Of a stretch of DNA of 40,215 nt, positions 1,069 through 31,730 are shown piece by piece. Within the stretch, counting starts at the first letter, position 1. Each line of letters begins with the position of its first letter. Origin of the DNA: a virus; the IMG/VR virus record IMGVR_UViG_3300047564_001471, positions 1 to 40,215 of that record; one strand, 5' to 3'. The notes beneath the pieces are model-generated. The model ran no database searches. It had not been told where the DNA came from and worked only from the letters and a program-made list of their open reading frames with translations. Made by a program: the position numbers and the translations under genes.

Positions 1069-1217
1069 GCAGACACCTTTGCCATTTCCCATCCCATGAT
1101 GAAATAGTTCCAACGGGTTTGGATGTTTGTATTGATGTAACGGCCATTTTTCTGAGAAAGGTCTGCATAACCTTTTGTTTTCATGATGGCTTCAAAGATC
1201 TTTTGTGATTGGCTCAT
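1065..1217 (-). CDS. Hypothetical 50-residue protein
   Basis: The start at 1217 (MSQSQKIFEAIMKTKG) overlaps the upstream gene's stop by ATGA (1214-1217), so the in-frame extension to 1280 is not used here. It is a small basic protein with an aromatic C-terminal segment (RWNYFIMGWEMAK). It is an internal cistron of the early operon; no family recognised. Confidence 0.65.
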   Translation of the reverse strand: MSQSQKIFEAIMKTKGYADLSQKNGRYINTNIQTRWNYFIMGWEMAKVSA

Positions 1218-1453
1218 GCTGTCACCTCTTGTTTTAACCATGTACGAACAACAGCCATGTCTTTTGCAGAGATTGACCAATCTGGTTCACCACCATCAAG
1301 GCATAAACCACGATCATCTGACTCCAAGATGGTTGACACGTAATAACGGCTAACAAACTGCCCAAACTCGGTATGCGGGTAACGAGAGTCGTAAAACTCT
1401 ACAAGCGGGTCATCCTGGTGAACAACTCGCACATTGAATTTGTCTACTCTCAT
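1214..1453 (-). CDS. Hypothetical 79-residue protein
   Basis: Soluble alpha/beta-looking protein, MRVDKFNVRVVHQDDPLVEFYDSR at the start, with no recognisable motif. It is coupled by ATGA to the gene on each side (1450-1453 and 1214-1217). The conserved tight spacing is the main evidence that it is real. Confidence 0.7.
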   Translation of the reverse strand: MRVDKFNVRVVHQDDPLVEFYDSRYPHTEFGQFVSRYYVSTILESDDRGLCLDGGEPDWSISAKDMAVVRTWLKQEVTA

Positions 1454-1731
1454 GCTGTGAACTCCAGTGCTTGGAGCTTGCTGATACGCTCGTTGATGCT
1501 GGCTACCTTATTGGCAAACTCAGCTTGGGCTTTGTCTTTTTCTTTTTGCAAAGCAGCAATCTTTTGAGCAGTAGGGTCGTACTCATCAGGGATGTCTAAC
1601 TCAATCTCTTGAGAACAAATATAAGTTCGGCGTTCGTCATCGGCCAATTTGGCGTACATGACTTGGTATTCAGCAGCCTCTTGCCAAGGGTAAGTGGCGT
1701 AGTAAATGTGGATTGTGGTTTTGACTTTCAT
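1450..1731 (-). CDS. Hypothetical 93-residue protein with C-terminal coiled coil
   Basis: The start at 1731 has an AAAGGAA ribosome binding site about 5 bases upstream; the in-frame ATG at 1782 has none. The N-terminal half is beta-rich (MKVKTTIHIYYATYP...). Residues about 55-90 (KIAALQKEKDKAQAEFANKVASINERISKLQ) form a likely coiled coil, which implies oligomerisation. First gene downstream of rusA in the leftward operon. Function unknown. Confidence 0.72.
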   Translation of the reverse strand: MKVKTTIHIYYATYPWQEAAEYQVMYAKLADDERRTYICSQEIELDIPDEYDPTAQKIAALQKEKDKAQAEFANKVASINERISKLQALEFTA

Positions 1732-1806
1732 TGCATTTCCTTTAGTGCCGTCATTGGCAAGCCAATTTTGCACTTGATTCATTTGAATTTGTATAGGGAC
1801 TTACCC

Positions 1807-2235
1807 TTAGTCCATGTCTTCCTTAATCAACACATCCACTAAACCTACCGTCCCATACACCTTTGTGCTGTGCAGGGAAACAACCTGGGTGTCATCGTCA
1901 TAAACGATCCCATTCATGGCATCCAAGTACGCTTTTAGGATGTTGTCGATGTCAGGCTTCTTGCAAGGCCTCTCCAAACCCTCCAAACAGGCCTTAGAGC
2001 GCTTTTTAGAGTACGACTGAGGGATAGGTACTGTGATGTAGATATAAGCTGCTATAGGCGTTTTTAATGGCTCTGAGCTTCCCATTGCTTGTTTGGCAGC
2101 AATCTTGATCAGATCCTCGTAGTCTCTGGTCTTGGTTGGGGTGTAGGTGGAGACAAAGTTGCCTCTCCTGGCGAACTTGGGACGTTGTTTCCCGACAGGG
2201 GTTGCTTCCACAGAAAAAGTAACAGAAAAAGTCAT
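1807..2235 (-). CDS. rusA: RusA-family Holliday junction resolvase
   Basis: A 142-residue protein with the RusA signature: N-terminal strand, TPVGKQRPKF, then KPDIDNILKAYLDAMNGI with acidic residues D95, D97 and D113-D115 and K101 in the positions expected for the resolvase active site. RusA cuts four-way junctions, so here it would resolve replication or recombination intermediates before packaging. The start at 2235 is chosen for AAGGAT upstream and its one-base gap after the HNH-AP2 stop. The neighbouring HNH gene and a second RusA-like start at 2868 suggest this copy arrived with, or was displaced by, a mobile cassette. Confidence 0.92.
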   Translation of the reverse strand: MTFSVTFSVEATPVGKQRPKFARRGNFVSTYTPTKTRDYEDLIKIAAKQAMGSSEPLKTPIAAYIYITVPIPQSYSKKRSKACLEGLERPCKKPDIDNILKAYLDAMNGIVYDDDTQVVSLHSTKVYGTVGLVDVLIKEDMD

Positions 2236-2236
2236 T

Positions 2237-2716
2237 TCATATCCTTGCAAATTCGCCAAAAAACCTTACGGCTGCTTTTTTGTACGCCTCTGATGCGTCT
2301 TCAATTTTTTCAAACCTACCAAGACATTTGAATTTGTTGTTTATCGTTATGTAGGCCATCCATTTATTTCTACCAACATCCCAACTAACGCCTTTGTGAC
2401 CACTTGTGTTGTGTGTTGGAATCTTGCAATTTCTGGCGTTTTCATTTGCTGTGGCTGGACGCAAATTTTCTAATTTGTTGTTAGAGCGATTGCCGTCAAT
2501 ATGATCAAGAAACTGTGGGCAGTGACCATGATGCAAAAGGTAAATTAGCCTGTGAGCAGGACGCAACTTGCCTTCAAGTCCTACCAAAACATATCCTTTC
2601 GAAAGACATCCGGCTGCTTTGTGAGCTATCTTTCTGCCTTGTGTTTTTTTCCAATAAAGAACTCCATCTCTGTAGTAAAGATTTTCTTTAACGGACTCAA
2701 GTAAGTTTTCAAGCAT
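2237..2716 (-). CDS. HNH homing endonuclease with AP2 DNA-binding domain
   Basis: A 159-residue protein. The HNH region spans about residues 50-95 (HRLIYLLHHG, then LDHIDGNRSNNKLENLR). It is followed by an AP2-type DNA-binding domain at about 105-155 (SGHKGVSW...KWMAYITINNKFKCLGRF...EAYKKAAVRFFGEFA). The HNH-AP2 fusion is typical of phage homing endonucleases. The start at 2716 follows GAGG at 7 bases. It sits exactly between a truncated rusA 5' end (2815-2868) and an intact rusA (1807-2235), the position expected of an element that invaded rusA. Confidence 0.9.
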   Translation of the reverse strand: MLENLLESVKENLYYRDGVLYWKKTQGRKIAHKAAGCLSKGYVLVGLEGKLRPAHRLIYLLHHGHCPQFLDHIDGNRSNNKLENLRPATANENARNCKIPTHNTSGHKGVSWDVGRNKWMAYITINNKFKCLGRFEKIEDASEAYKKAAVRFFGEFARI

Positions 2717-2814
2717 GTCGCACCTCATCATTGGTGGAAGTCATCACTAAAAGACAACAGCAGGACGGTGATGAATCGTCTTTTCCCCCGCTAAAGGTAG
2801 CTGTTACCTAAATT
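2717..2814 (-). other. Non-coding gap between rusA remnant and HNH-AP2 gene
   Basis: About 100 bases with no coding potential on the operon strand, in an operon whose genes otherwise overlap. It includes AGCTACC, a GCGGGGG run and a TCATCACC segment. It may be the 5' flank of an inserted element. Group I intron core elements could not be made out by eye. Confidence 0.4.
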
Positions 2815-2868
2815 TTATACCATTCCCTTACCTACAGGAGTGCCTTCAACTTGGAAGGTGACATGCAT
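2815..2868 (-). pseudogene. Truncated rusA 5' end
   Basis: A 17-codon frame reads MHVTFQVEGTPVGKGMV and stops. It matches the start of the intact RusA (MTFSVTFSVEATPVGKQRP) over the TF-V-E-TPVGK motif and ends where RusA needs its RPR/RPK loop. Its ATG overlaps the upstream stop as TAATG, so it occupies the original coupled position of a rusA cistron. The DNA differs from the intact copy at many third positions, so it is not a recent duplicate. Inferred to be a displaced, broken rusA start; chance similarity over 14 residues is possible but unlikely in this position. Confidence 0.6.
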
Positions 2869-2966
2869 TACCACGGTGCTGGCTCCGTCTTGAGTGGGAC
2901 TTGTTCGGGTTTGACGGGTTGTCCGTTGCGAACAGGGAAAGGCCACACTATCTTTTTGGTCATCAT
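2868..2966 (-). CDS. 32-residue hypothetical microprotein
   Basis: The frame begins MMTKKIVWPFPV and ends TEPAPW. The start overlaps the upstream stop (GAATGATG at 2961-2967) and the stop overlaps the rusA-remnant start (TAATG). Proline-rich and extended, it may be a peptide-binding tail. The evidence is translational coupling on both sides rather than any family match. Confidence 0.5.
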   Translation of the reverse strand: MMTKKIVWPFPVRNGQPVKPEQVPLKTEPAPW

Positions 2967-3139
2967 TCGCGTTTTCCTTCCATGAATTCTTTGAAGTAGG
3001 CGTGTATTCGTCTAACGCCATCGGGTTTGTGCCACTTGATTGATCCCTTGATAAGCCTCAGAGTGTTCTCTTTGTCTTTCAAGGTTTCGTGGGTTCTCCA
3101 TATCTCTCTGGCTCTGGCAATCTCTTCTTGAGGGTTCAT
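2963..3139 (-). CDS. 58-residue hypothetical protein beside the helicase gene
   Basis: The start at 3139 overlaps the helicase stop (ATGA 3136-3139). Charged helical protein (MNPQEEIARAREIWRTHETLKDKEN...). Its position directly after the helicase resembles that of helicase-loader or replication-accessory genes in other phages, but the sequence itself gives no function. Confidence 0.65.
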   Translation of the reverse strand: MNPQEEIARAREIWRTHETLKDKENTLRLIKGSIKWHKPDGVRRIHAYFKEFMEGKRE

Positions 3140-4119
3140 GTAGGCACATGGGGGTAGTTGACGAACCACATCGGTCTGTCTTGGGGTTGACCAATGTACT
3201 GTTGAGCATCCCTGTGAAACCACAGCTTGATCGTAGGTTCACCCTCTACCGAGCCTTCGTAGTTCCGTTGCTTACGGCACAGCAGGTAGTGGTCAGGGTC
3301 ATCAGCAGACTTGGCAAACTGGCCTTCAGTCTTGATGTCGTCCTCTTTGGACTTGTTGCGCCAAACCAACATCACGTTGTCAACTTGGTCGGTGATAGCA
3401 CCCGAGCCTTTGTTGTCGTGTTTGTCAGGCATGGCGTATTCGTTGGCTGGTTTCTTCAGATGGTGGACAAGGTGGATGTGGACATCGTAGTCACGAGCAA
3501 CACTGGTCAGCTCATCAACAAAGACCTTTTGACCGTTGTAGTCGTCCTCACCCTTAACGCACTTGGCAAGGTTGTCCACAAAGATGTGAGTGATGCCCAG
3601 CTCCTTGGCACAGTAGCGAACCATACCGATAACGGTCTGAGCGTCTGCTGTTCCCATCTGGTCGTACAGCCACATGGTTCCATCCGTCCAGGTTCCAAAT
3701 TGGTCGTACATGTCATCAAGGGCTTCAATTCCTCTGTCGCCTTGGAACTCAGGCATGAAAGGGTTGCACCCAATCCACATACGAGCCATACGCTGTAGGG
3801 TCACTGATGGCTTCATTTCAAAGGAGGCAATGCAGACCTTCTCATCTTGGCCGATCAGGGATAAGGCAACTTGGGAGGTCATCAGGGATTTACCGTGACC
3901 GTTCTGTCCTGACCACAGGGTGACCTCACCCTTCCTGAACTCAAAGTTTTCCTTGGTGTGATCCCAAGGCAGGTACGAAACCTTCTGGTCTTTCTTGGTC
4001 CTCAGTCTGGACTTGATGTAATCAATGTAGTCTGAGGCTTTCTTGACCTTGGTTTGGTTGTCAGTCTCTTTAATGTACTGAGAGAAGTCGATTGTGTCTG
4101 GGGTTAGTACTATTGCCAT
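3136..4119 (-). CDS. DnaB/Twinkle-like replicative DNA helicase
   Basis: A 327-residue RecA-fold ATPase with Walker A GQNGHGKS (residues 71-78), IASFEM after it, Walker B IFVDN (179-183), and HLVHHLKKP with KGSGAITDQVDNV typical of DnaB-family motifs H3 and H4. It lacks a primase domain and has only a short N-terminal region. It would unwind phage DNA at the fork after loading by the upstream O-like initiator. The start at 4119 is chosen because the upstream gene stops at 4121 and GGGAAA lies just before it; the in-frame extension to 4218 overlaps that gene. Confidence 0.9.
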   Translation of the reverse strand: MAIVLTPDTIDFSQYIKETDNQTKVKKASDYIDYIKSRLRTKKDQKVSYLPWDHTKENFEFRKGEVTLWSGQNGHGKSLMTSQVALSLIGQDEKVCIASFEMKPSVTLQRMARMWIGCNPFMPEFQGDRGIEALDDMYDQFGTWTDGTMWLYDQMGTADAQTVIGMVRYCAKELGITHIFVDNLAKCVKGEDDYNGQKVFVDELTSVARDYDVHIHLVHHLKKPANEYAMPDKHDNKGSGAITDQVDNVMLVWRNKSKEDDIKTEGQFAKSADDPDHYLLCRKQRNYEGSVEGEPTIKLWFHRDAQQYIGQPQDRPMWFVNYPHVPT

Positions 4120-6453: not shown

Positions 6454-7116
6454 ATGTCAATTGAAAAGCTGCTTCAGACCAACGTAAACGGTCATACAGA
6501 GAAAAAAAACAACCTTACATACCTGTCATGGGCATGGGCATGGGCAGAGGCTTTAAAGGCCGATCCTGCTGCTACATACAGGGTTGAAACATTCCAAGAG
6601 CATGGTCAAAACGGGTCATGCCGTACTGTCCCTTACATGAACATCAACGGCTCTTGCATGGTGTTTGTCACTGCTACCTTGTTTGGCAAGCCAATGACCT
6701 GTCAGTTGCCAGTGATGGACTACAAAAACAAGGCAATCCAAGAGCCTGATGCTTTTGCTGTCAACACGGCAATCATGCGTTGCATGACCAAGGCACTGTC
6801 GTTGCATGGATTGGGTCTGTACATCTATGCTGGTGAAGACTTACCAGAAGAGGGTGATGTCCCAAGAAAAGGCAAAGGCGCAATCGTTACACCTCGTGGT
6901 GGCATTGGCGAAGACCTCCCACAAGACATCAAAGACTTCCTGACTGACTTGGCAGCAGGAGTTACAGAGTTAGTTGACCAGGGTAAGGCTAAAGAAGCTC
7001 TTGCACTGATTGACGAACAGGCATTGGAAGCTGATCAGCGTGTCTGGTTGGCTAATCAAATGTCTTCCACCGTGCGTTCTGCACTAAAGAAAATTAAAGA
7101 GGTAAATAATGGCTGA
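6454..7116 (+). CDS. Sak3-type (DUF1071) single-strand annealing protein
   Basis: A 220-residue protein. The N-terminal part carries NVNGHTEKKNNLTYLSWAWAWAEALK, then PYMNINGSCMVFVTATLFGKPMTCQLPVMDYKNKAI, and NTAIMRCMTKALSLHGLGLYIYAGEDLP, all hallmarks of the DUF1071/Sak3 group of phage annealing recombinases. The C-terminal 70 residues are a more variable helical region. It would anneal complementary strands during phage recombination, probably with the SSB-like protein encoded next (8-base overlap). Confidence 0.88.
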   Translation: MSIEKLLQTNVNGHTEKKNNLTYLSWAWAWAEALKADPAATYRVETFQEHGQNGSCRTVPYMNINGSCMVFVTATLFGKPMTCQLPVMDYKNKAIQEPDAFAVNTAIMRCMTKALSLHGLGLYIYAGEDLPEEGDVPRKGKGAIVTPRGGIGEDLPQDIKDFLTDLAAGVTELVDQGKAKEALALIDEQALEADQRVWLANQMSSTVRSALKKIKEVNNG

Positions 7117-7522: not shown

Positions 7523-7957
7523 ATGAACACATATTTTGCTGATCTTCGGGCTAAAAGAAAAGCGCTTGGTCTTTGTCTTGCTTGCGGAAAACATCCAGCG
7601 CCTTGCGAATCATGCAGGGCTTGGAACCGTGAGTACATGAGAAAAAAAAGAGCTGGTCTGCCGCCTGAAGAAAAGCAAAAGGTGTGGGTGACAAAGCGTC
7701 ACTATTACTTAATGCGCAGGTTTGGAATTTCTGAAGAGCAATACAACAAAATGCTTGAGCAGCAAAACTACTCTTGCGCAATATGTAAATCAAAAGAATC
7801 TGGGGACAAACGAACAAACCGACTTGCTGTTGATCATTGTCACACTACAAACCATGTTAGGGGTTTGTTGTGCTCGGCATGCAACAAAGGAATTGGGCTT
7901 ATGCGTGACTCCCCTGACATTCTTCAATCCGCCATCAAATACCTACAAAATAACTGA
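7523..7957 (+). CDS. Recombination endonuclease VII-family nuclease
   Basis: A 144-residue protein with an N-terminal zinc knuckle (C18, C21, C28, C31). The nuclease core has CAICK (C85, C88), LAVDHCHTTNHVRGLLC (D104, H105) and CSACNKGIG (C117, C120, N121), the endonuclease VII layout. Members cut branched DNA (T4 gp49) or act as mobile nucleases. The short N-terminal knuckle and terminal LRDSPDIL-type helix are common in the free-standing phage forms. Confidence 0.88.
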   Translation: MNTYFADLRAKRKALGLCLACGKHPAPCESCRAWNREYMRKKRAGLPPEEKQKVWVTKRHYYLMRRFGISEEQYNKMLEQQNYSCAICKSKESGDKRTNRLAVDHCHTTNHVRGLLCSACNKGIGLMRDSPDILQSAIKYLQNN

Positions 7958-24318: not shown

Positions 24319-25476
24319 TCAGGCCAAGTAACGCTGGCACTGAGCGGCAGCACGAGGAGCTGTCACTGCTGCACCAGTTGGGCTGATAGCCGCCAACACA
24401 GCAACACCTGCTGGGTTACGAACAATCAGTGTACCTTCCATGATGTACTGATCCAAGGAAGCGTCAGCAGAGCTGAACACTTCGTTGTTTGGACCCAGTT
24501 CACGCAAGCTACCCCACTGGATAACGTCAGGGTTCAGGAACAGGGCAGAAGTGTTGTCTGCGCCTGTGGAGTCCATAACCCAAGAGTCATCGATCTGGTA
24601 GGTGTAGTTGAAGTCACCTTCGTAAGTACCAATCGTGTCGCCCTTGTCAGCAGGGTTAAAACGGTTGATCGAACGGCTGGTAGGCATCATGTCCGAGATG
24701 TGCGTACGCATGGAAGTGGGGACAACCATGTTCGTAATCTTGGCGTTGAAGCGCTGTTCAGCAGTGGTCACCAGTTGCTTGTACAGGTATGGGCTGAATT
24801 GCTGCAGCGTCACGCCAGACGAGAAGGTGAAGTAACCCAAGCCAGCATTGCTCAACAGGCCGTTGAAAGGCTGGTTGGTGTTGGTGGCAGAAGTCACATC
24901 GTTACCATCGCTGGTAGCCAGGTTCAGCACAGAAGTGCCGTCTGTGTCGTTGCCGGAACGTGTACCAGCGAACGAATACAGGGAACCAAAACGGCGACCG
25001 TTGTTGGGGGAAGCGCCTTGAGTAGCAGCTTGGCCGCTGTACTTGATAGAAGCGCCATCGGCACGAACCATCTGAAGTTCAACGTCAAACATGATTTCGG
25101 TCAATTGCTTGACCTCTTGGTAGGCTTGTGGATCGCCACCAGCTTGCTCAACAGCACGGGCAGTACCTGTAGCACCAATGACGGTGGTAAAGATCTGCGT
25201 GTAGTTGCCGCAGTTAGCACGGGTGTTGCTGTCAGCAGCAGAAGCGGCAACAGCAGCGCCTTCCAGCTTGGCGTTCAAAGCTGGGGTGCGGTAGTAGTCA
25301 ACAGGCCAGATGTGCAGAGTCGAGTTGACTTTGCGCTTCTTGGACATAGCCATGTTGGTCAGGGGGGTACGGTCTTTAACATAGTTAGAGACTGTCATGT
25401 CGAGGTCTTTGACCACGATATCGGTGGTATACGAGCCGTTGCCGTTACCAAGGTTTGCAGAGGTGATGGTAGCCAT
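24319..25476 (-). CDS. Major capsid protein, SU10-type (DUF5309)
   Basis: A 385-residue protein from the ATG at 25476, which has AGGAG upstream; the longer frame overlaps the scaffold gene. DRTPLTNMAMSKKRKVNSTLHIWPVDYY, NYTQIFTTVIGATGTARAV and DDSWVMDSTGADNTSALFLNPDVIQWGSLREL follow the HK97-fold SU10 capsid pattern. It forms the head shell around the scaffold encoded just upstream. A terminator follows immediately. Confidence 0.92.
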   Translation of the reverse strand: MATITSANLGNGNGSYTTDIVVKDLDMTVSNYVKDRTPLTNMAMSKKRKVNSTLHIWPVDYYRTPALNAKLEGAAVAASAADSNTRANCGNYTQIFTTVIGATGTARAVEQAGGDPQAYQEVKQLTEIMFDVELQMVRADGASIKYSGQAATQGASPNNGRRFGSLYSFAGTRSGNDTDGTSVLNLATSDGNDVTSATNTNQPFNGLLSNAGLGYFTFSSGVTLQQFSPYLYKQLVTTAEQRFNAKITNMVVPTSMRTHISDMMPTSRSINRFNPADKGDTIGTYEGDFNYTYQIDDSWVMDSTGADNTSALFLNPDVIQWGSLRELGPNNEVFSSADASLDQYIMEGTLIVRNPAGVAVLAAISPTGAAVTAPRAAAQCQRYLA

Positions 25477-25489
25477 TTGAAACTCCTGT

Positions 25490-26605
25490 TTAACGCTTGC
25501 GTTTGTTTGCTGCAAGCATGGTTGCTAAAAGATCGCGTGCTGCATTCTTATCGCCGGACTTAGCTTGCTTTTGAAGTTTTTCCATCTCGTTATCTGGAGC
25601 GGTTTTGGCCTTTGCCACCGGACGACTAGCAGCAGCTAGAGATCCACCAGCATTTTTGACCTTGGGTCCTTCCCGGAACTTCATACCATCCCGAATCAGA
25701 CCCAACAGAAATTCATCACTGGACACCAAATCGATGTTTGGCACACCAGGGACAAACGAACTGTTTGCACCTTTCCAATCCTTACCAAGCTTCTCACGAA
25801 TCTCAGTAAAGACAGCCTTGTTGCTCAACTCTTTGTCAGTAAAGGACTGTCTGGCTTTCTCCAAGCTTTCTTGGACCATCGCAGTACGATGCTGATAGAA
25901 CTGTTCAACTTTAGGCCGATTTGCCTTAATGAACTGCGACTTCTCTTCAATCAACTGAGCGTTTTGACGCATTGCTGCTTCAGCACGGCTCTTCTCTGTC
26001 GGATCAGTCGTGTTTTGATAGATTTGCGCCCATTGCTGGTTATATTCTTGGATCGTAATCAGCTCATCAGCAGCAGACTGCAACTGAGGAACGATTGTCA
26101 ACTCCAAGCCTATCTGCAAGCCATCAAGTTCACTCTTGCGCTTCGATTCATATTCTTCAAAATCTGCTTTTTCAGCTTTAAGCTTACGAGCATTTTCATG
26201 GATAGCACTACCTTGACCCAGAATAGAAGCTGCCTTCTCTGCTGTCAATTCAATAAAGCCGCCTTCTGCGTCCTTATTAGGAATCTTCAACATTACGTCA
26301 GGATTCTCTTTCGCAAACTCAATGAAATCGACTGCTTCGCTTACTCCATCGGAGGACTCGGCTTCAACTTCTGACTCTGCGGCATCCGACTCAACTGAAC
26401 TGCCATCTTCAGGTTCGACCCCTTCAACAGGAGCCGCCTCCGGGGATTTGGCTTGCGCCTCTTCTTGTCCGGCTGGTGGTGGAGAACTGCCATCGGGTTG
26501 CGGATTGTTACGCTTGTTAGCGGCAATCATGGCAGCGATAGCATCGGCGGGATTCGCCACACCAGTTTGCTCAGGGGCGGTCACTTGCGTGATTACGTCT
26601 GACAT
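25490..26605 (-). CDS. Scaffold-like protein (371 residues)
   Basis: Pro/Ser/Glu-rich acidic N-terminus (about 35-95), then a long helical charged body (ENARKLKAEKADFEEYESKRKSEL...) and a basic C-terminal helix rich in K/R (KLQKQAKSGDKNAARDLLATMLAANKRKR). Acid-rod-base proteins directly upstream of capsid genes are scaffolds. The C-terminal basic helix is the usual capsid-binding element. Confidence 0.8.
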   Translation of the reverse strand: MSDVITQVTAPEQTGVANPADAIAAMIAANKRNNPQPDGSSPPPAGQEEAQAKSPEAAPVEGVEPEDGSSVESDAAESEVEAESSDGVSEAVDFIEFAKENPDVMLKIPNKDAEGGFIELTAEKAASILGQGSAIHENARKLKAEKADFEEYESKRKSELDGLQIGLELTIVPQLQSAADELITIQEYNQQWAQIYQNTTDPTEKSRAEAAMRQNAQLIEEKSQFIKANRPKVEQFYQHRTAMVQESLEKARQSFTDKELSNKAVFTEIREKLGKDWKGANSSFVPGVPNIDLVSSDEFLLGLIRDGMKFREGPKVKNAGGSLAAASRPVAKAKTAPDNEMEKLQKQAKSGDKNAARDLLATMLAANKRKR

Positions 26606-26948: not shown

Positions 26949-29111
26949 TTAATCAACTTGAATTGAGTGGAGTTTTCCTCGTTTAGCAGCCAAAGCCTCA
27001 AACATGTTGTCTGTATCAATGTCTTCAGCTTTCTTCTGCGTGAACATTGTGTTTGCCATTGTGTCTTCAATCTTGGCTTTGTTCAAATCTGTTTCAGATT
27101 GAATCTTCTGTTGTTCAGCGCTCGGACCTTTTTCGGCTTGAGCTTGCATGATTTTTGCAGCTTCTTCCAATGTAGGCAAATAAGCGTCAACGTCTTTGAC
27201 ACCCAAAACCCGCAAGGTATCCTCAAAAGGACGGCGCAATTTGCCAAACAACTCAGGAACGCTAGGGTCCAGACCCATCATTGCCTGGGTAAACTGCTGT
27301 TGAGCCTGACCAATCAACTGTTGGCGGGTCAAACGGTTCTCATCGGACAGGAAACCAAGAGCCAAATCGATGTTGATCAGCTTACGGTCAATGAACTCGT
27401 AGTTTTCCATTGAGATAGCGTCCATAAATGGAGCGCCCTTGGCACAAACACCTGCCAACTGCTGAATGTTGTAGTCGTCCGAGTACTGAATCAGGGTCTT
27501 CCAGACAATGTAGATCATGTCCCGCAGACCAATGGCACAGTTCTTAACCATTTCATCTTGGATGAGCTGGTTAGGACCCATAGCCAATTGCAGCTTAAAG
27601 CCCGAGTTGCCGTCCTTCATCACTTCAGGATTAAGCACATCGTTGGGGCTTGTCATGCCGATCATTGCCATCTTGTCGGCTTCAAACCGCTGCATGGACG
27701 ATTGGACGTAAGCCAAGTTGCCCTGCATGGGTGCAAATTCGTAGATGTGCTTGGCAGGATCAAACTTACGGTCCAAGATGAACATGGCAGACACACCACG
27801 TTGGATCTCTTCCGCATCCATGAACTCTGGGTTGACACCGATACGAGGTGTCGAGGACTGCATGGCAAAAGCCATCTCAGCACGAGCAATCGATGTGGCG
27901 TATTCCTGCATAGGCACAAGGCGTTCTGCAAGGGAGTAGCCAAAGAAGTTGCCAGTGATTGGCTTAGGGCACATTGCCGCCAAAGGAATGAAGTCCACCT
28001 CTTTGACGTACAAAACATACGAGCCAGAGAAGCAGCACTCAACGATTTCCTCTTCACCGTCACCGTCAACGTCTTTGCGAATCCATGCGGTGGTCAGCAT
28101 GATGACTCGGCTGTAACGGTCAGCACCAGCAGAAGCAATTACGCCTTGGCCGGGAACAGGAGTGGAATCACGAGCATGCAAAGCAAGATCGTTTTCCAAT
28201 GCACCTGCTTGGTAAGCGCCAGCAGGACCATAGGCAGCGTGTTCAGCAAGTTTCTCAAGGTCAACATACGGGAATTGAGCTTTGCACTCATGGATGGTCA
28301 TTGGATCGTAGAAACCTACAAAATCTTGATCCTGGATATTGGGAATTGTTGGGTTACAGACAAAGTAATGTTGGGCAACGTGCTTGATACGGACAGATGT
28401 CGAGAAACCCGTCATCTTGTACTTGGCACGGTAGATGGTATTGGCAGAAATTGCCTCATTGACCTCTTCTTGGACGGTTCCTTGGTCGTCATCAGGATTC
28501 ATCATCTCCTGCATGACACCTTCAAGGTCAACGTCAATCTTACGCATGTTCTGACGCTTAACTGTCAGACCTTTTTCAGCAGCCATAGTCTCAAAGACTC
28601 GCAACTGATCTCGTGTACCTTCAACTTCTTTGTACTGCGTAATAGGCTCCCGCACTGGAGAAACCATCACAACACCGTTCTTGTGCAACAACGAGTCTTG
28701 TGCCCAATCACGGATGACAGCATAAGAATCGTTCTTTGAGTTGATCATGTACTTGACCATCTCAGTTGCTTGATTGGCTTGTGCGCTGTCTTGCTCACTG
28801 AACCGCTCAAACTCAAAGTTAACCTTGCCGTTTGGCATCAGGCATTTGGTAATGATGGCCGTAGCGTAATCAACACCAGGGGTCACTACAGGGTGGATGT
28901 AGTCAATGCCCCGGATTGGCTCGGTGGAGTTGCTGACAGCAATGTTGAGGTAGTGGTAATCAGAAAGACGGTTAAACGTGTTCTTGGCTTGCGTCAATCG
29001 CAAGTAGTCCACCATCTTCAAGTACACCTCATGTGCAACTTGGAAAACAATCCCTTTGTTGCCAGCAGGTGCTTCGATGTACTCAACGATAATATTTTGT
29101 TTATCCAACAT
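26949..29111 (-). CDS. Portal protein, P22 gp1-like
   Basis: A 720-residue protein, close to the 725 of P22 gp1. YHYLNIAVSNSTEPIRGIDYIHPVVTPGVDYATAIITKCLMPNGK near the N-terminus, wing and stem regions with LAERLVPMQEYATSIARAEMAF, SPNDVLNPEVMKDGNSGFKLQLAMGPNQLIQDEMVKN as the central helix-rich part, and a charged helical barrel-like C-terminus (AEKGPSAEQQKIQSETDLNKAKIEDTMAN, read in pieces of the chain). It forms the dodecameric DNA gate and docks the terminase encoded just upstream. AAAGGAT precedes the ATG. Confidence 0.9.
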   Translation of the reverse strand: MLDKQNIIVEYIEAPAGNKGIVFQVAHEVYLKMVDYLRLTQAKNTFNRLSDYHYLNIAVSNSTEPIRGIDYIHPVVTPGVDYATAIITKCLMPNGKVNFEFERFSEQDSAQANQATEMVKYMINSKNDSYAVIRDWAQDSLLHKNGVVMVSPVREPITQYKEVEGTRDQLRVFETMAAEKGLTVKRQNMRKIDVDLEGVMQEMMNPDDDQGTVQEEVNEAISANTIYRAKYKMTGFSTSVRIKHVAQHYFVCNPTIPNIQDQDFVGFYDPMTIHECKAQFPYVDLEKLAEHAAYGPAGAYQAGALENDLALHARDSTPVPGQGVIASAGADRYSRVIMLTTAWIRKDVDGDGEEEIVECCFSGSYVLYVKEVDFIPLAAMCPKPITGNFFGYSLAERLVPMQEYATSIARAEMAFAMQSSTPRIGVNPEFMDAEEIQRGVSAMFILDRKFDPAKHIYEFAPMQGNLAYVQSSMQRFEADKMAMIGMTSPNDVLNPEVMKDGNSGFKLQLAMGPNQLIQDEMVKNCAIGLRDMIYIVWKTLIQYSDDYNIQQLAGVCAKGAPFMDAISMENYEFIDRKLINIDLALGFLSDENRLTRQQLIGQAQQQFTQAMMGLDPSVPELFGKLRRPFEDTLRVLGVKDVDAYLPTLEEAAKIMQAQAEKGPSAEQQKIQSETDLNKAKIEDTMANTMFTQKKAEDIDTDNMFEALAAKRGKLHSIQVD

Positions 29112-29113
29112 GA

Positions 29114-31555
29114 TTAAATCCTTTGCACCTTGCCATCAACGGGTGTTGGACGGCGATATTGGAAAGAGTTGGCCCGACTGACCACCGTTTCCCCGTGACC
29201 CTGAATCAACGCCAAGATTCCAATACGGGCAGAGTCAATGTGATCGTCCGGATCACTGAACCTGCCAGCGTCATCAATAGCGTAGTTCCTTGCCTCATCG
29301 AGAAAATCGACACAAGACTCATTGATCATCAATGTGCCACGTTCCATTCCCATCCGCATTATATTGATTCCATAGGACTTATGGTTGGTTACCTTGCCCT
29401 GGTCGTTTACTGGGTTCAATATAGCACCCGGAATACAGTTTAGGCCATAGTTGTCCTCAAACACTTCCCGAACCGACTGTTCAGTCAAGGTATACCGACC
29501 AGCTTGGGTCGCATCATGGGGCAAAGCAATCGGGATACCCTTGGATTCTCTGTCCATCAAATAATGGACGTACTCATCCGGGGTTTCGCCTTGGGGAATC
29601 TTAATCTGACGGTGCAAATAGATGATTTCTTCCACAGGATTGCGGAAAAAGAAGCTAATCACGGTTGGGTCATTGCGGATACCCAAGTCAAACGAGATCA
29701 AACGCTCAAGTTTTGGATCATTCTTGAGGTCAATGTCAGTTGCTTTGTATGTCGGCCAGTTAAGGATTGGGAAAACCACGCCTTTGCCGACCAACGGAAT
29801 ACCTTTGATACGGCAGTCTCGCTCCCAAGGCATAAAGTCACGGGATAACTGATCCCGCTCTTCTTGGCTGAAGAACTTCTCACCCCATTCGTTTTCAAAC
29901 GGGATGTCGTCCCAAGTCACTCGCACATGGGTGTAGCCGTCAATCTTGTCCCAGAACTTACGCACGAGTCCGGACATACCTTTGAGTGGCGTAAACGAAC
30001 ACATAACCTGCCCATTACGCTGTGCTGTACGGACAACAAGTTCCGAGAACACTTCATCTGGGGGTTGTTCGTCCAAGACAACAAGGTCAAGCTCAAAACC
30101 CTGCAAGTGACGCACTTGTTGGGTGTAGTTTGAGAAATACAGCTTTGATTTACCACCGGAACTATGCCAAATCTCAATAGACAGGACGTTAGCCCCATCC
30201 GTTCTGTATGACTTCTCGTCAATACACTCCAAAGGGATAGAGCCTGTTCCTAATTTGTACGATTGCTTGATGTCATCACATCCAAGCAGCTTGCTTTGCA
30301 GTGTCTTGGCTACCTGTTCCCAGGATTCACCAGCACACATGGCAATGATGGGTTTGTCCCACTTCTTGCCTTTCCAATTTTTGGGATATCTGCCTGTCAG
30401 GTGGTAAGCAGTCTCGTAGGTCGAGGCGATTGTATTGTGGTGAACAATGCCAGCACTGATGTAGTTTTCAGTGCCAGGAACAGTAAAGTCATAGCAATCA
30501 TGGACGCCAATCGGTTGATACGCTATAATCTGGTTAGCATCAACACTAAAGGGGTTTACCAATGAAGGCTTTTCAATTTGATCTTGACCAGTTGCGTGAA
30601 TTGATTGAAGTTCAGCAATTGACGCAAGAACAAGTCTCTGCAATTCTTGGATGTAGTCGCACAACTTTGCAGAGGGCATGTTATCGCTATGAGTTAAATA
30701 CTCAGCGAACAGGTCCACGATCTGGCGACAGGCATCCAGATTGGAAAGGTGGTCGAACTTTGGTTGGTGGGTATTGGTATATCTATCAACCAGACCATCC
30801 GCATCGCACAAAGAAAAATACTGTCGCAGAGCATCGACTTGTGATGGAAGAACATTTAGGCCGGTATTTATTGCGAACAGAAGTTGTTCATCATAAGAAC
30901 GGAGATTCTCAAGACAATCGATTAGAAAACCTAGAAGTGTTTTCCACGAACGCTCTTCATCTGAAGCATGAACTCTCCGGGCGCACTCCAAACTGGTCGC
31001 CCCAAGGTTTGGAAGCGATGGCAGCAGGTTCTCGCAAAAGACGTATTCAGCTCCAGACTGCAAAACGCGATGCCCAAGGGCGGCTTCTATCCAGCGACCA
31101 TTCGACATCCACAGACGAACGCAAGGCTCCGCAGGTTTCATGATTGGCTGAATGGCAGTTTTAATTACTGCCTTCTCACCATCCCAAGACCAAACCTTAA
31201 ACGGCTTGTTTTGTCTGTACATCTCGCCGTAGGTAATCTTGCTTCCATCGGGCAGGTCTAAAACTGTTGCTGCTGTACAACATTTTCCTGCACGGTTGGC
31301 TGCAATCATCCCTCTACGGGCAAAGTGAGCGCCTGTCTCAAAGAACTCAGTCTGGTACTTGAAAGGTCTGAACCACTTCAAGGTATTGAACTGCATGTCT
31401 TTGGCGACAGTATCTCTTGCCGCTTTCATCTTGCGTAGTTGGTCGGCATCAAGATGCTTGATAGCAGCCTTGCCACCAGCCAACTTCACAAGGTGTTTGA
31501 GTGCCCGATCCTTGTAGATGGGCAGTATGTAGTCACTGGCTTCACTTTTTGCCAT
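29114..31555 (-). CDS. terL: Large terminase subunit precursor, interrupted by an intein
   Basis: An 813-residue precursor (530 after intein removal). The N-extein ends AANRAGK and the C-extein starts TIASTYE, giving the Walker A AANRAGKT only after splicing. Walker B is LVVLDEQ with D495 and E496, and the nuclease domain has ISFDLGIRNDP (D623) and a late DDHIDSAR. It packages DNA through the portal and cuts concatemers. The ATG at 31555 is chosen over an in-frame GTG three codons upstream. Unspliced protein cannot bind ATP normally, so packaging should depend on intein splicing. Confidence 0.93.
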   Translation of the reverse strand: MAKSEASDYILPIYKDRALKHLVKLAGGKAAIKHLDADQLRKMKAARDTVAKDMQFNTLKWFRPFKYQTEFFETGAHFARRGMIAANRAGKCCTAATVLDLPDGSKITYGEMYRQNKPFKVWSWDGEKAVIKTAIQPIMKPAEPCVRLWMSNGRWIEAALGHRVLQSGAEYVFCENLLPSLPNLGATSLECARRVHASDEERSWKTLLGFLIDCLENLRSYDEQLLFAINTGLNVLPSQVDALRQYFSLCDADGLVDRYTNTHQPKFDHLSNLDACRQIVDLFAEYLTHSDNMPSAKLCDYIQELQRLVLASIAELQSIHATGQDQIEKPSLVNPFSVDANQIIAYQPIGVHDCYDFTVPGTENYISAGIVHHNTIASTYETAYHLTGRYPKNWKGKKWDKPIIAMCAGESWEQVAKTLQSKLLGCDDIKQSYKLGTGSIPLECIDEKSYRTDGANVLSIEIWHSSGGKSKLYFSNYTQQVRHLQGFELDLVVLDEQPPDEVFSELVVRTAQRNGQVMCSFTPLKGMSGLVRKFWDKIDGYTHVRVTWDDIPFENEWGEKFFSQEERDQLSRDFMPWERDCRIKGIPLVGKGVVFPILNWPTYKATDIDLKNDPKLERLISFDLGIRNDPTVISFFFRNPVEEIIYLHRQIKIPQGETPDEYVHYLMDRESKGIPIALPHDATQAGRYTLTEQSVREVFEDNYGLNCIPGAILNPVNDQGKVTNHKSYGINIMRMGMERGTLMINESCVDFLDEARNYAIDDAGRFSDPDDHIDSARIGILALIQGHGETVVSRANSFQYRRPTPVDGKVQRI
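30502..30530 (+). promoter_or_regulatory. Sigma70-type promoter for the antisense endonuclease gene
   Basis: TGGACG at 30502-30507, 17 bases, then a perfect TATAAT at 30525-30530, pointing into the HNH gene that starts at 30562. The predicted transcript start near 30537 leaves a leader of about 25 bases with AAAGGGG before the ATG. On the other strand these bases encode intein residues near the C-terminal splicing block. Confidence 0.7.
30562..31143 (+). CDS. HNH homing endonuclease encoded antisense within the terL intein
   Basis: A 193-residue protein. A helix-turn-helix-like N-terminus (LTQEQVSAILGCSRTTLQRAC, in parts) is followed by HPDWKGG and an HNH_3-type core: AEHRLVMEEHLG, VVHHKNGDSQDN (H110, H111, N113), RLENLEVFS and HLKHE (H133, H136). 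Ribosome binding site AAAGGGG. It lies wholly inside the intein coding region on the opposite strand, 194 codons including the stop. The usual antisense shadow frames here put the third codon base opposite the first base of the real codon; this gene is in a different phase (first bases opposite), which supports genuine coding. Confidence 0.92.
   Translation: MKAFQFDLDQLRELIEVQQLTQEQVSAILGCSRTTLQRACYRYELNTQRTGPRSGDRHPDWKGGRTLVGGYWYIYQPDHPHRTKKNTVAEHRLVMEEHLGRYLLRTEVVHHKNGDSQDNRLENLEVFSTNALHLKHELSGRTPNWSPQGLEAMAAGSRKRRIQLQTAKRDAQGRLLSSDHSTSTDERKAPQVS
31154..31175 (+). terminator. Terminator-like hairpin just after the antisense endonuclease gene
   Basis: GGCAGT, loop TTTAATT, ACTGCC, then TTCTC, beginning 10 bases after the endonuclease stop. 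The U-tract is weak. Together with the promoter at 30502-30530 it would limit the plus-strand transcript to the endonuclease cassette inside the intein. Confidence 0.4.
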
Positions 31556-31730
31556 ATGCGTCACGCATGGTCAGCAAGAGGTCAGCAGCAGAAGCAAGGT
31601 AGTAAACATCCTTTGGCTCCAAGACACGATCTCCTTGAAGATCCTTCTGTAGCCACTCTAATGTTTTTCTTGCACAAGCCTCTGCTTGAGCTGACAACTT
31701 TTGACGGAAGATGGTTGAATGATCTTCCAT
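31542..31730 (-). CDS. 62-residue protein directly upstream of terL
   Basis: The start at 31730 overlaps the upstream stop (TGATG). MEDHSTIFRQKLSAQAEACARKTLEWLQKDL is helical and charged, and the stop lies inside the start of terL (14-base overlap). The position fits a small terminase-associated protein; the usual terS candidate is further upstream (32931-33422). Confidence 0.65.
   Translation of the reverse strand: MEDHSTIFRQKLSAQAEACARKTLEWLQKDLQGDRVLEPKDVYYLASAADLLLTMRDAYGKK

Follow-up and report, generated by a model that had tools for sequence, protein, structure and literature searches.

An intein in a phage terminase gene with a putative homing endonuclease gene on the opposite strand

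How does an intein move when its own reading frame encodes no nuclease? Intein homing endonucleases are described as in-frame domains, made together with the host protein, that drive the life cycle of the intein. The question is raised by a viral DNA stretch of 40,215 nucleotides (nt) (IMG/VR record IMGVR_UViG_3300047564_001471, positions 1 to 40,215; hereafter the window), where the gene for the terminase large subunit (terL) carries such an intein on the minus strand, while the plus strand of the same DNA encodes an HNH endonuclease. We propose, with a probability of roughly 80%, that this intein is mobile and that an antisense gene, expressed independently, provides its homing endonuclease, so that two genes overlap on opposite strands. 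The argument rests on the following features.

29114-31564, minus strand: terL open reading frame (ORF) with in-frame intein, 816 amino acids (aa)
31283-31564, minus strand: N-extein of terL
30434-31282, minus strand: intein, 283 aa, Cys1 ... His282-Asn283^Thr, in the Walker A motif GK^T
31013-31282, minus strand: Hint N-part, intein aa 1-90, blocks A and B with His71 (AlphaFold2 predicted local distance difference test score, pLDDT, about 86-96)
30548-30988, minus strand: intein linker, aa 99-245, open and structureless, opposite the HNH gene (from AlphaFold2, from omega, the ratio of replacement to silent substitution rates, and from stop avoidance)
30434-30535, minus strand: Hint C-part, intein aa 250-283, blocks F and G (AlphaFold2 pLDDT 93-97)
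29117-30433, minus strand: C-extein of terL
30562-31143, plus strand: antisense helix-turn-helix (HTH)-HNH endonuclease gene, 193 aa, ATG start, wholly within the intein
30562-30996, plus strand: selected core of the HNH protein, aa 1-145, with the HTH at about aa 8-42 and HNH_3 at aa 91-129 (from omega and AlphaFold2)
30549-30554, plus strand: AAGGGG, resembling a Shine-Dalgarno site, 7 nt ahead of the HNH ATG (relatives L011-L013 have AAAGGA there)
30501-30529, plus strand: promoter-like TGGACG-17-TATAAT (weak evidence)

The insert occupies terL residues 95-377, with junctions ANRAGK^CCTAATVLDLPDG...GIVHHN^TIASTYET. The terL product matches Terminase_6N slightly below the cut-off, and an SU10_portal gene lies downstream. 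Since the terL ORF is continuous (no stop codon over the whole intein, and no division of the host gene into two ORFs), a group I intron or a split gene is not needed to read the locus, although no dedicated RNA search was made. The intein frame exceeds the cut-off of NCBIfam intein_Cterm, and a profile built from 48 insert relatives finds inteins of known structure (Ssp DnaB mini-intein 1mi8, E=5e-22; PI-MtuI, 5e-14). A Foldseek search with the AlphaFold2 model likewise leads to Ssp DnaB mini-inteins (E=1e-5); the model is confident in the Hint portion (aa 1-90 and 250-283), and the middle stays mostly below pLDDT 50, reaching up to 64 in aa 204-227. Residues C1, G62, H71, D265, V268 and N283 are invariant across 48 aligned inteins. 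Among 80 relatives the residue following the intein is Ser (51), Thr (28) or Cys (1), and the intein ends in HN (65), KN (13), RN (1) or AN (1). The KN ending before Ser, non-canonical in its penultimate residue, marks an apparently maintained group (L072-L074, L076, L078-L085, L087). Between blocks B and F we found no in-frame nuclease domain, the intein frame matching intein families only in Pfam, NCBIfam and PHROGs. The original prediction, made from the sequence alone, had described a class 1-type intein that splits the Walker A motif at Lys^Thr and lacks a nuclease on its sense strand; the matches to intein_Cterm and Ssp DnaB agree with the first part and the lack of nuclease matches in the intein frame with the second, and its boundaries (30434-31282) proved exact.

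That prediction had also placed an HNH endonuclease with an HTH-like N-terminus on the plus strand inside the intein, and the plus-strand ORF indeed matches Pfam HNH_3 above the cut-off (2.5e-10) and several HNH families of PHROGs (best phrog_20891 HNH, 3e-24), with HTH matches to the N-terminus that are sub-threshold. A profile of the HNH protein matches the homing endonuclease I-HmuI (1u3e) with E=0.0017. The AlphaFold2 model (pLDDT 85) has HTH-like helices at the N-terminus, a beta-beta-alpha region and, at the C-terminus, a long helix, and the catalytic-type residues H111, N119 and N123 are invariant in 48 HNH relatives. Facing the selected core of this protein is the disordered linker; the Hint N-part starts (31013) just past the end of the core.

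This two-strand layout recurs widely. A first search of IMG/VR returned three relatives (90, 76 and 46% identical) with the same layout in each, one of them in a very divergent TerL. A profile search of IMG/VR then confirmed 590 relatives of the HNH protein; in the best 80, kept for layout counts, the HNH ORF always lies opposite a long frame with intein ends at a P-loop (80/80), and the phase is fixed, HNH codon position 1 facing intein codon position 1 in 80/80. All fetched loci together gave 184 matches, or 120 distinct HNH core sequences, every one in the same phase. The insertion points of the relatives include GK^T, NR^SGK, NQ^SGK, EK^TGK, IG^SGK and DQ^TGI, and the host proteins are mostly terminases, with a TraG/TraD-like protein (L075) and a Strawberry-notch helicase (L077) besides. 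To avoid selecting for HNH, we also searched IMG/VR with the intein N-domain alone, which gave 99 evaluable loci and one more that is ended by the contig end. Antisense HNH genes were present in 96 of the 99 (59+37), and a sense-strand HNH in none of them. The other three loci (L258, L260, L261) are HNH-less mini-inteins of 135-136 aa in the terL Walker A motif, with Hint domains related to those of the antisense-HNH family; they are probably loss products or the ancestral state.

Cultured phages carry the element as well. We read it directly in Pectobacterium phages Ymer (L009, annotated "hypothetical protein") and Setonix, and six further Pectobacterium phages have a C-extein match together with a full-length HNH match on the opposite strand. 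In Pseudoalteromonas phage PHS3 (L194, KX912252.1) the terL ORF on the minus strand, 1203-3326(-), is continuous over 708 aa. Its public record labels only the C-extein as terminase large subunit and gives the HNH as a separate coding sequence on the opposite strand, missing the intein-bearing terL frame. These cultured members came through the HNH protein; tblastn of phage records with the whole intein gave no match. Among 24 HNH relatives on bacterial genome contigs, an intein-like frame faces the gene in three, L170, L183 and L171 (in L171 no intein end was recognized); the other 21 have no such frame. Two terL ORFs, L046:455-2860(-) and L086:1166-3673(-), have an additional in-frame LAGLIDADG_3 match, downstream of their antisense-HNH intein, which suggests a second, ordinary intein in the same gene.

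We observed substantial differences between the two frames when substitutions in related environmental contigs were classed by their effect in each. Over 12 independent close pairs, including pairs 3-9% divergent, omega in the overlap is 0.23 for HNH and 1.21 for the intein. Per site, changes that are silent in HNH and replacing in the intein are about four times as frequent as doubly replacing ones (p=2e-40 for the HNH frame and p=0.29 for the intein frame, with sites treated as independent). The window's own pairs gave omega values of 0.26-0.41 for HNH and 1.05-2.39 for the intein over the HNH core (aa 1-145). The trend is reversed in the HNH tail (aa 146-190), opposite Hint block B, where omega is about 1-1.7 for HNH and 0.48-0.89 for the intein, on small counts; only residues 1-145 act as a selected protein, and the C-terminal tail opposite block B looks like a by-product. 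The intein frame is nevertheless kept open. Synonymous codon shuffling of each HNH gene predicts 5.2 stops per gene in the intein frame, versus 0 seen in 74 loci; for the HNH gene of the window, shuffles that preserve its amino acids gave a mean of 6.0 intein-frame stops and were stop-free in 0 of 300, the observed number being 0. The two omega values and the avoidance of stops together indicate that the HNH strand is selected for its amino acids and the intein strand for openness. The original prediction had held that it would fall if intein relatives lacked a conserved plus-strand HNH frame or if this frame evolved without purifying selection; instead, the HNH gene accompanies the splicing domain in nearly all loci found through that domain, and it is clearly constrained.

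It had also called for a search for intein-minus alleles with a GK^T site, and these dominate in the close kin of the window's TerL. Of the 80 sequences most closely related to it in the C-extein, 77 lack the intein and have a contiguous GK-TIASTYETAY, and the remaining three carry it, each with an antisense HNH. In the terL tree the intein label is scattered, the four intein-bearing rows requiring at least four changes, and the window groups with the empty L090 and L092. One pair of alleles is near-isogenic. L161, with the intein, differs from the empty L166 and L168 by an exact 849-bp insertion, the first upstream mismatch lying at 34 nt and the first downstream one at 501 nt (L166) or 147 nt (L168). 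This is a precise presence/absence polymorphism; gain by homing is its likely direction, though not the sole option. Divergence in Hint is correlated with divergence in HNH (Mantel r=0.51, permutation p about 0.0005), and the element therefore travels largely as a unit.

Signals that could serve independent expression of the nuclease lie just ahead of it. Shine-Dalgarno matches of at least 4 precede 54% of HNH starts versus 24% of internal start codons (p=6e-7), the start codons being uncertain for many relatives. Six of eight relatives have a TATAAT or TACAAT 38 nt ahead of the HNH ATG, and ATA codons are enriched at that position (p=1.5e-4, uncorrected for relatedness and optimistic, because the positional signal comes from related sequences). 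Both observations hint at a promoter inside the intein. An antisense HNH gene might be expressed early, with terL late.

We therefore suggest the following scheme for the proposed mobile element. On the minus strand, a cis-splicing Hint intein would remove itself from TerL and restore the Walker A motif (GK-T), its middle being a tolerated linker. The plus strand over this linker would supply a separate HTH-HNH homing endonuclease, probably translated from a start codon of its own and perhaps transcribed from a dedicated promoter. Once this enzyme had cleaved the GK^T site of a terL without intein, repair from an intein-bearing copy would insert the whole element; the Sak annealing protein of the phage may help in this repair. 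Homing would thus be decoupled from splicing. More generally, we think it probable that mobile inteins of this kind form a widespread class: the splicing domain and the homing endonuclease would be encoded by overlapping genes that run antiparallel and keep a single fixed phase, the nuclease could be expressed early, independently of the late host gene, and the linker would be constrained only to lack stops, its amino acids being dictated by the nuclease.

Several points weigh against this interpretation. Splicing, cleavage of the empty site, plus-strand expression and homing are steps that we infer; what is directly observed is the anatomy, its conservation, selection on both frames and the precise presence/absence alleles. 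About one third of the relatives have no recognizable Shine-Dalgarno sequence at the assumed start. The promoter scan found 2 sites versus 1.6 expected, shuffles giving as many, and the site in the window is weak and lies within coding sequence. A Foldseek search of the PDB with the HNH model returned no significant match, the top ones being mostly DNA-binding transcription regulators. The terL tree gives the number of changes without telling gains from losses. Finally, the window and L108 are 93% identical in the DNA of the overlap, but their intein DNA outside it (77.5%) is as divergent as the exteins (76-80%). We rejected the 93% as evidence of recent lateral transfer, since double coding explains the excess identity of the overlap.

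This last comparison would fit an intein that has become immobile and keeps its antisense HNH as a relict, the layout having arisen once and been carried along although the nuclease no longer serves homing. Many inteins of known families lose their nuclease, and the three HNH-less mini-inteins fit such a history. Even so, we regard it as unlikely: a relict would hardly show an HNH omega of 0.23 over 12 independent close pairs, some of them only 3-9% divergent, a frame intact in nearly every locus with invariant H and N residues, or a near-isogenic presence/absence pair. Less probable still is that the HNH is a parasitic free-standing gene using a mini-intein as a safe harbour, homing only itself into HNH-less mini-inteins and not into empty terL. 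Such mini-inteins do exist at the terL Walker A motif, and related HNH genes are free-standing elsewhere; yet the other allele in the terL family of the window is the intein-free one (77/80), with no HNH-less mini-intein seen among these 80, the polymorphic unit in L161 versus L166/L168 is the whole 849 bp, and Hint and HNH co-diverge. We give slightly less credence again to a nuclease that serves mainly another job of the phage, such as cutting competitor genomes or aiding packaging, with the intein merely its host. Terminase-adjacent HNH proteins can assist packaging in other phages, and recurrence in terL would agree with this, but the element is sporadic and absent from nearly all close relatives, and thus not needed for packaging, which is moreover irrelevant for the copies in the TraG/TraD-like protein and the Strawberry-notch helicase. 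Coding DNA does carry accidental long antisense ORFs, but the idea that this one merely happens to be open across from an ordinary intein is refuted by the HNH_3 and PHROG matches, the 80/80 layout, the purifying selection in the HNH frame, the confident fold (pLDDT 85) and the 0/300 stop-free shuffles.

Elsewhere in the window, the families of capsid and portal suggest that the virus is an SU10-like podovirus, and two further putative nucleases are encoded.

2237-2731, minus strand: free-standing HNH_3 and AP2 protein, putative nuclease
6454-7116: Sak single-strand annealing protein (SSAP_Sak)
7523-7957, plus strand: recombination endonuclease VII family protein, putative nuclease
24319-25515: capsid, SU10-type family match
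26949-29111: portal, SU10-type family match

A separate antisense nuclease gene would uncouple the expression of homing from that of late genes, and would make the intein linker a by-product of another gene. The 120 distinct HNH sequences also offer a large natural collection of DNA in which both strands code, in strictly antiparallel fashion. The element easily escapes routine annotation: in the records examined, the intein gene is called hypothetical or terL is reported in pieces. Thanks to the cultured phages and the near-isogenic empty alleles, splicing, cleavage and homing are directly testable.

The two-strand arrangement of intein and nuclease appears to be previously undescribed. We did not find an intein with an opposite-strand nuclease in the open-access literature searched, although a preprint of 2025, "Actinobacteriophage Inteins: ... 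Non-Canonical Architecture" (doi 10.1101/2025.01.02.630785), may mention one. The nearest known counterparts in splicing domain are class 1 inteins such as that of the dCTP deaminase of cyanophage CL131, with HintN and an in-frame HNH_3 nuclease (PMC6293099), and TerL1-a and TerL1-b of mycobacteriophages, located in the Walker A motif (PMC5050341). The window intein shares with them Cys1, the HN ending, a Ser, Thr or Cys at +1, the Hint fold and insertion in a P-loop; its insertion site is identical to the Lys^Thr of TerL1-a, and its nuclease is of the HNH_3 type like that of CL131. However, in those inteins the nuclease is an in-frame part or absent; the window encodes it separately, on the opposite strand.

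The ShiLan domain, a hidden out-of-frame HNH in phage DNA methylases (Arsenault, Gosselin and Gogarten 2025, PMC11855218), contains a detectable homologue of the window HNH. It also resembles our case in having an HNH in a frame other than that of the host, a host frame kept open and a sporadic mobile insert. In ShiLan, however, both frames are on the same strand, there are no splicing domains and the host protein retains the insert, whereas the window has the HNH on the opposite strand of a canonical-looking intein with Hint domains. Among our loci, Mycobacterium phage Starcevich (L008, OR475289.1, about 2501-2863) and its kin carry a same-strand HNH homologue in another frame inside an in-frame methylase insert, which is the published ShiLan. 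Cylindrospermopsis phage Cr-LKS3 (L007, OM373202.1, 2501-2731) has a same-strand, other-frame homologue in a methylase insert that looks like a further ShiLan member.

Antisense homing endonuclease genes are known from group I introns of nuclear ribosomal DNA (rDNA), e.g., I-DsqI, which is expressed and cuts the intron-less site (PMC9548176). There, too, the endonuclease lies on the strand opposite a self-splicing element; but the element is an RNA intron, it resides in eukaryotic rDNA and its nuclease is of the His-Cys type, and the intron is free of the demand to be an ORF, whereas in the window both strands must be translated. I-HmuI, whose likeness to our HNH is the profile match (E=0.0017), is by contrast a nicking enzyme encoded by a sense-strand gene in a group I intron. 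In the split inteins of "fractured genes", a free-standing endonuclease gene lies between the halves. Like the HNH gene described here, it is a separate gene within the intein locus; but their host gene consists of two trans-splicing ORFs, whereas the terL of the window is a continuous precursor ORF, whose product would splice in cis.
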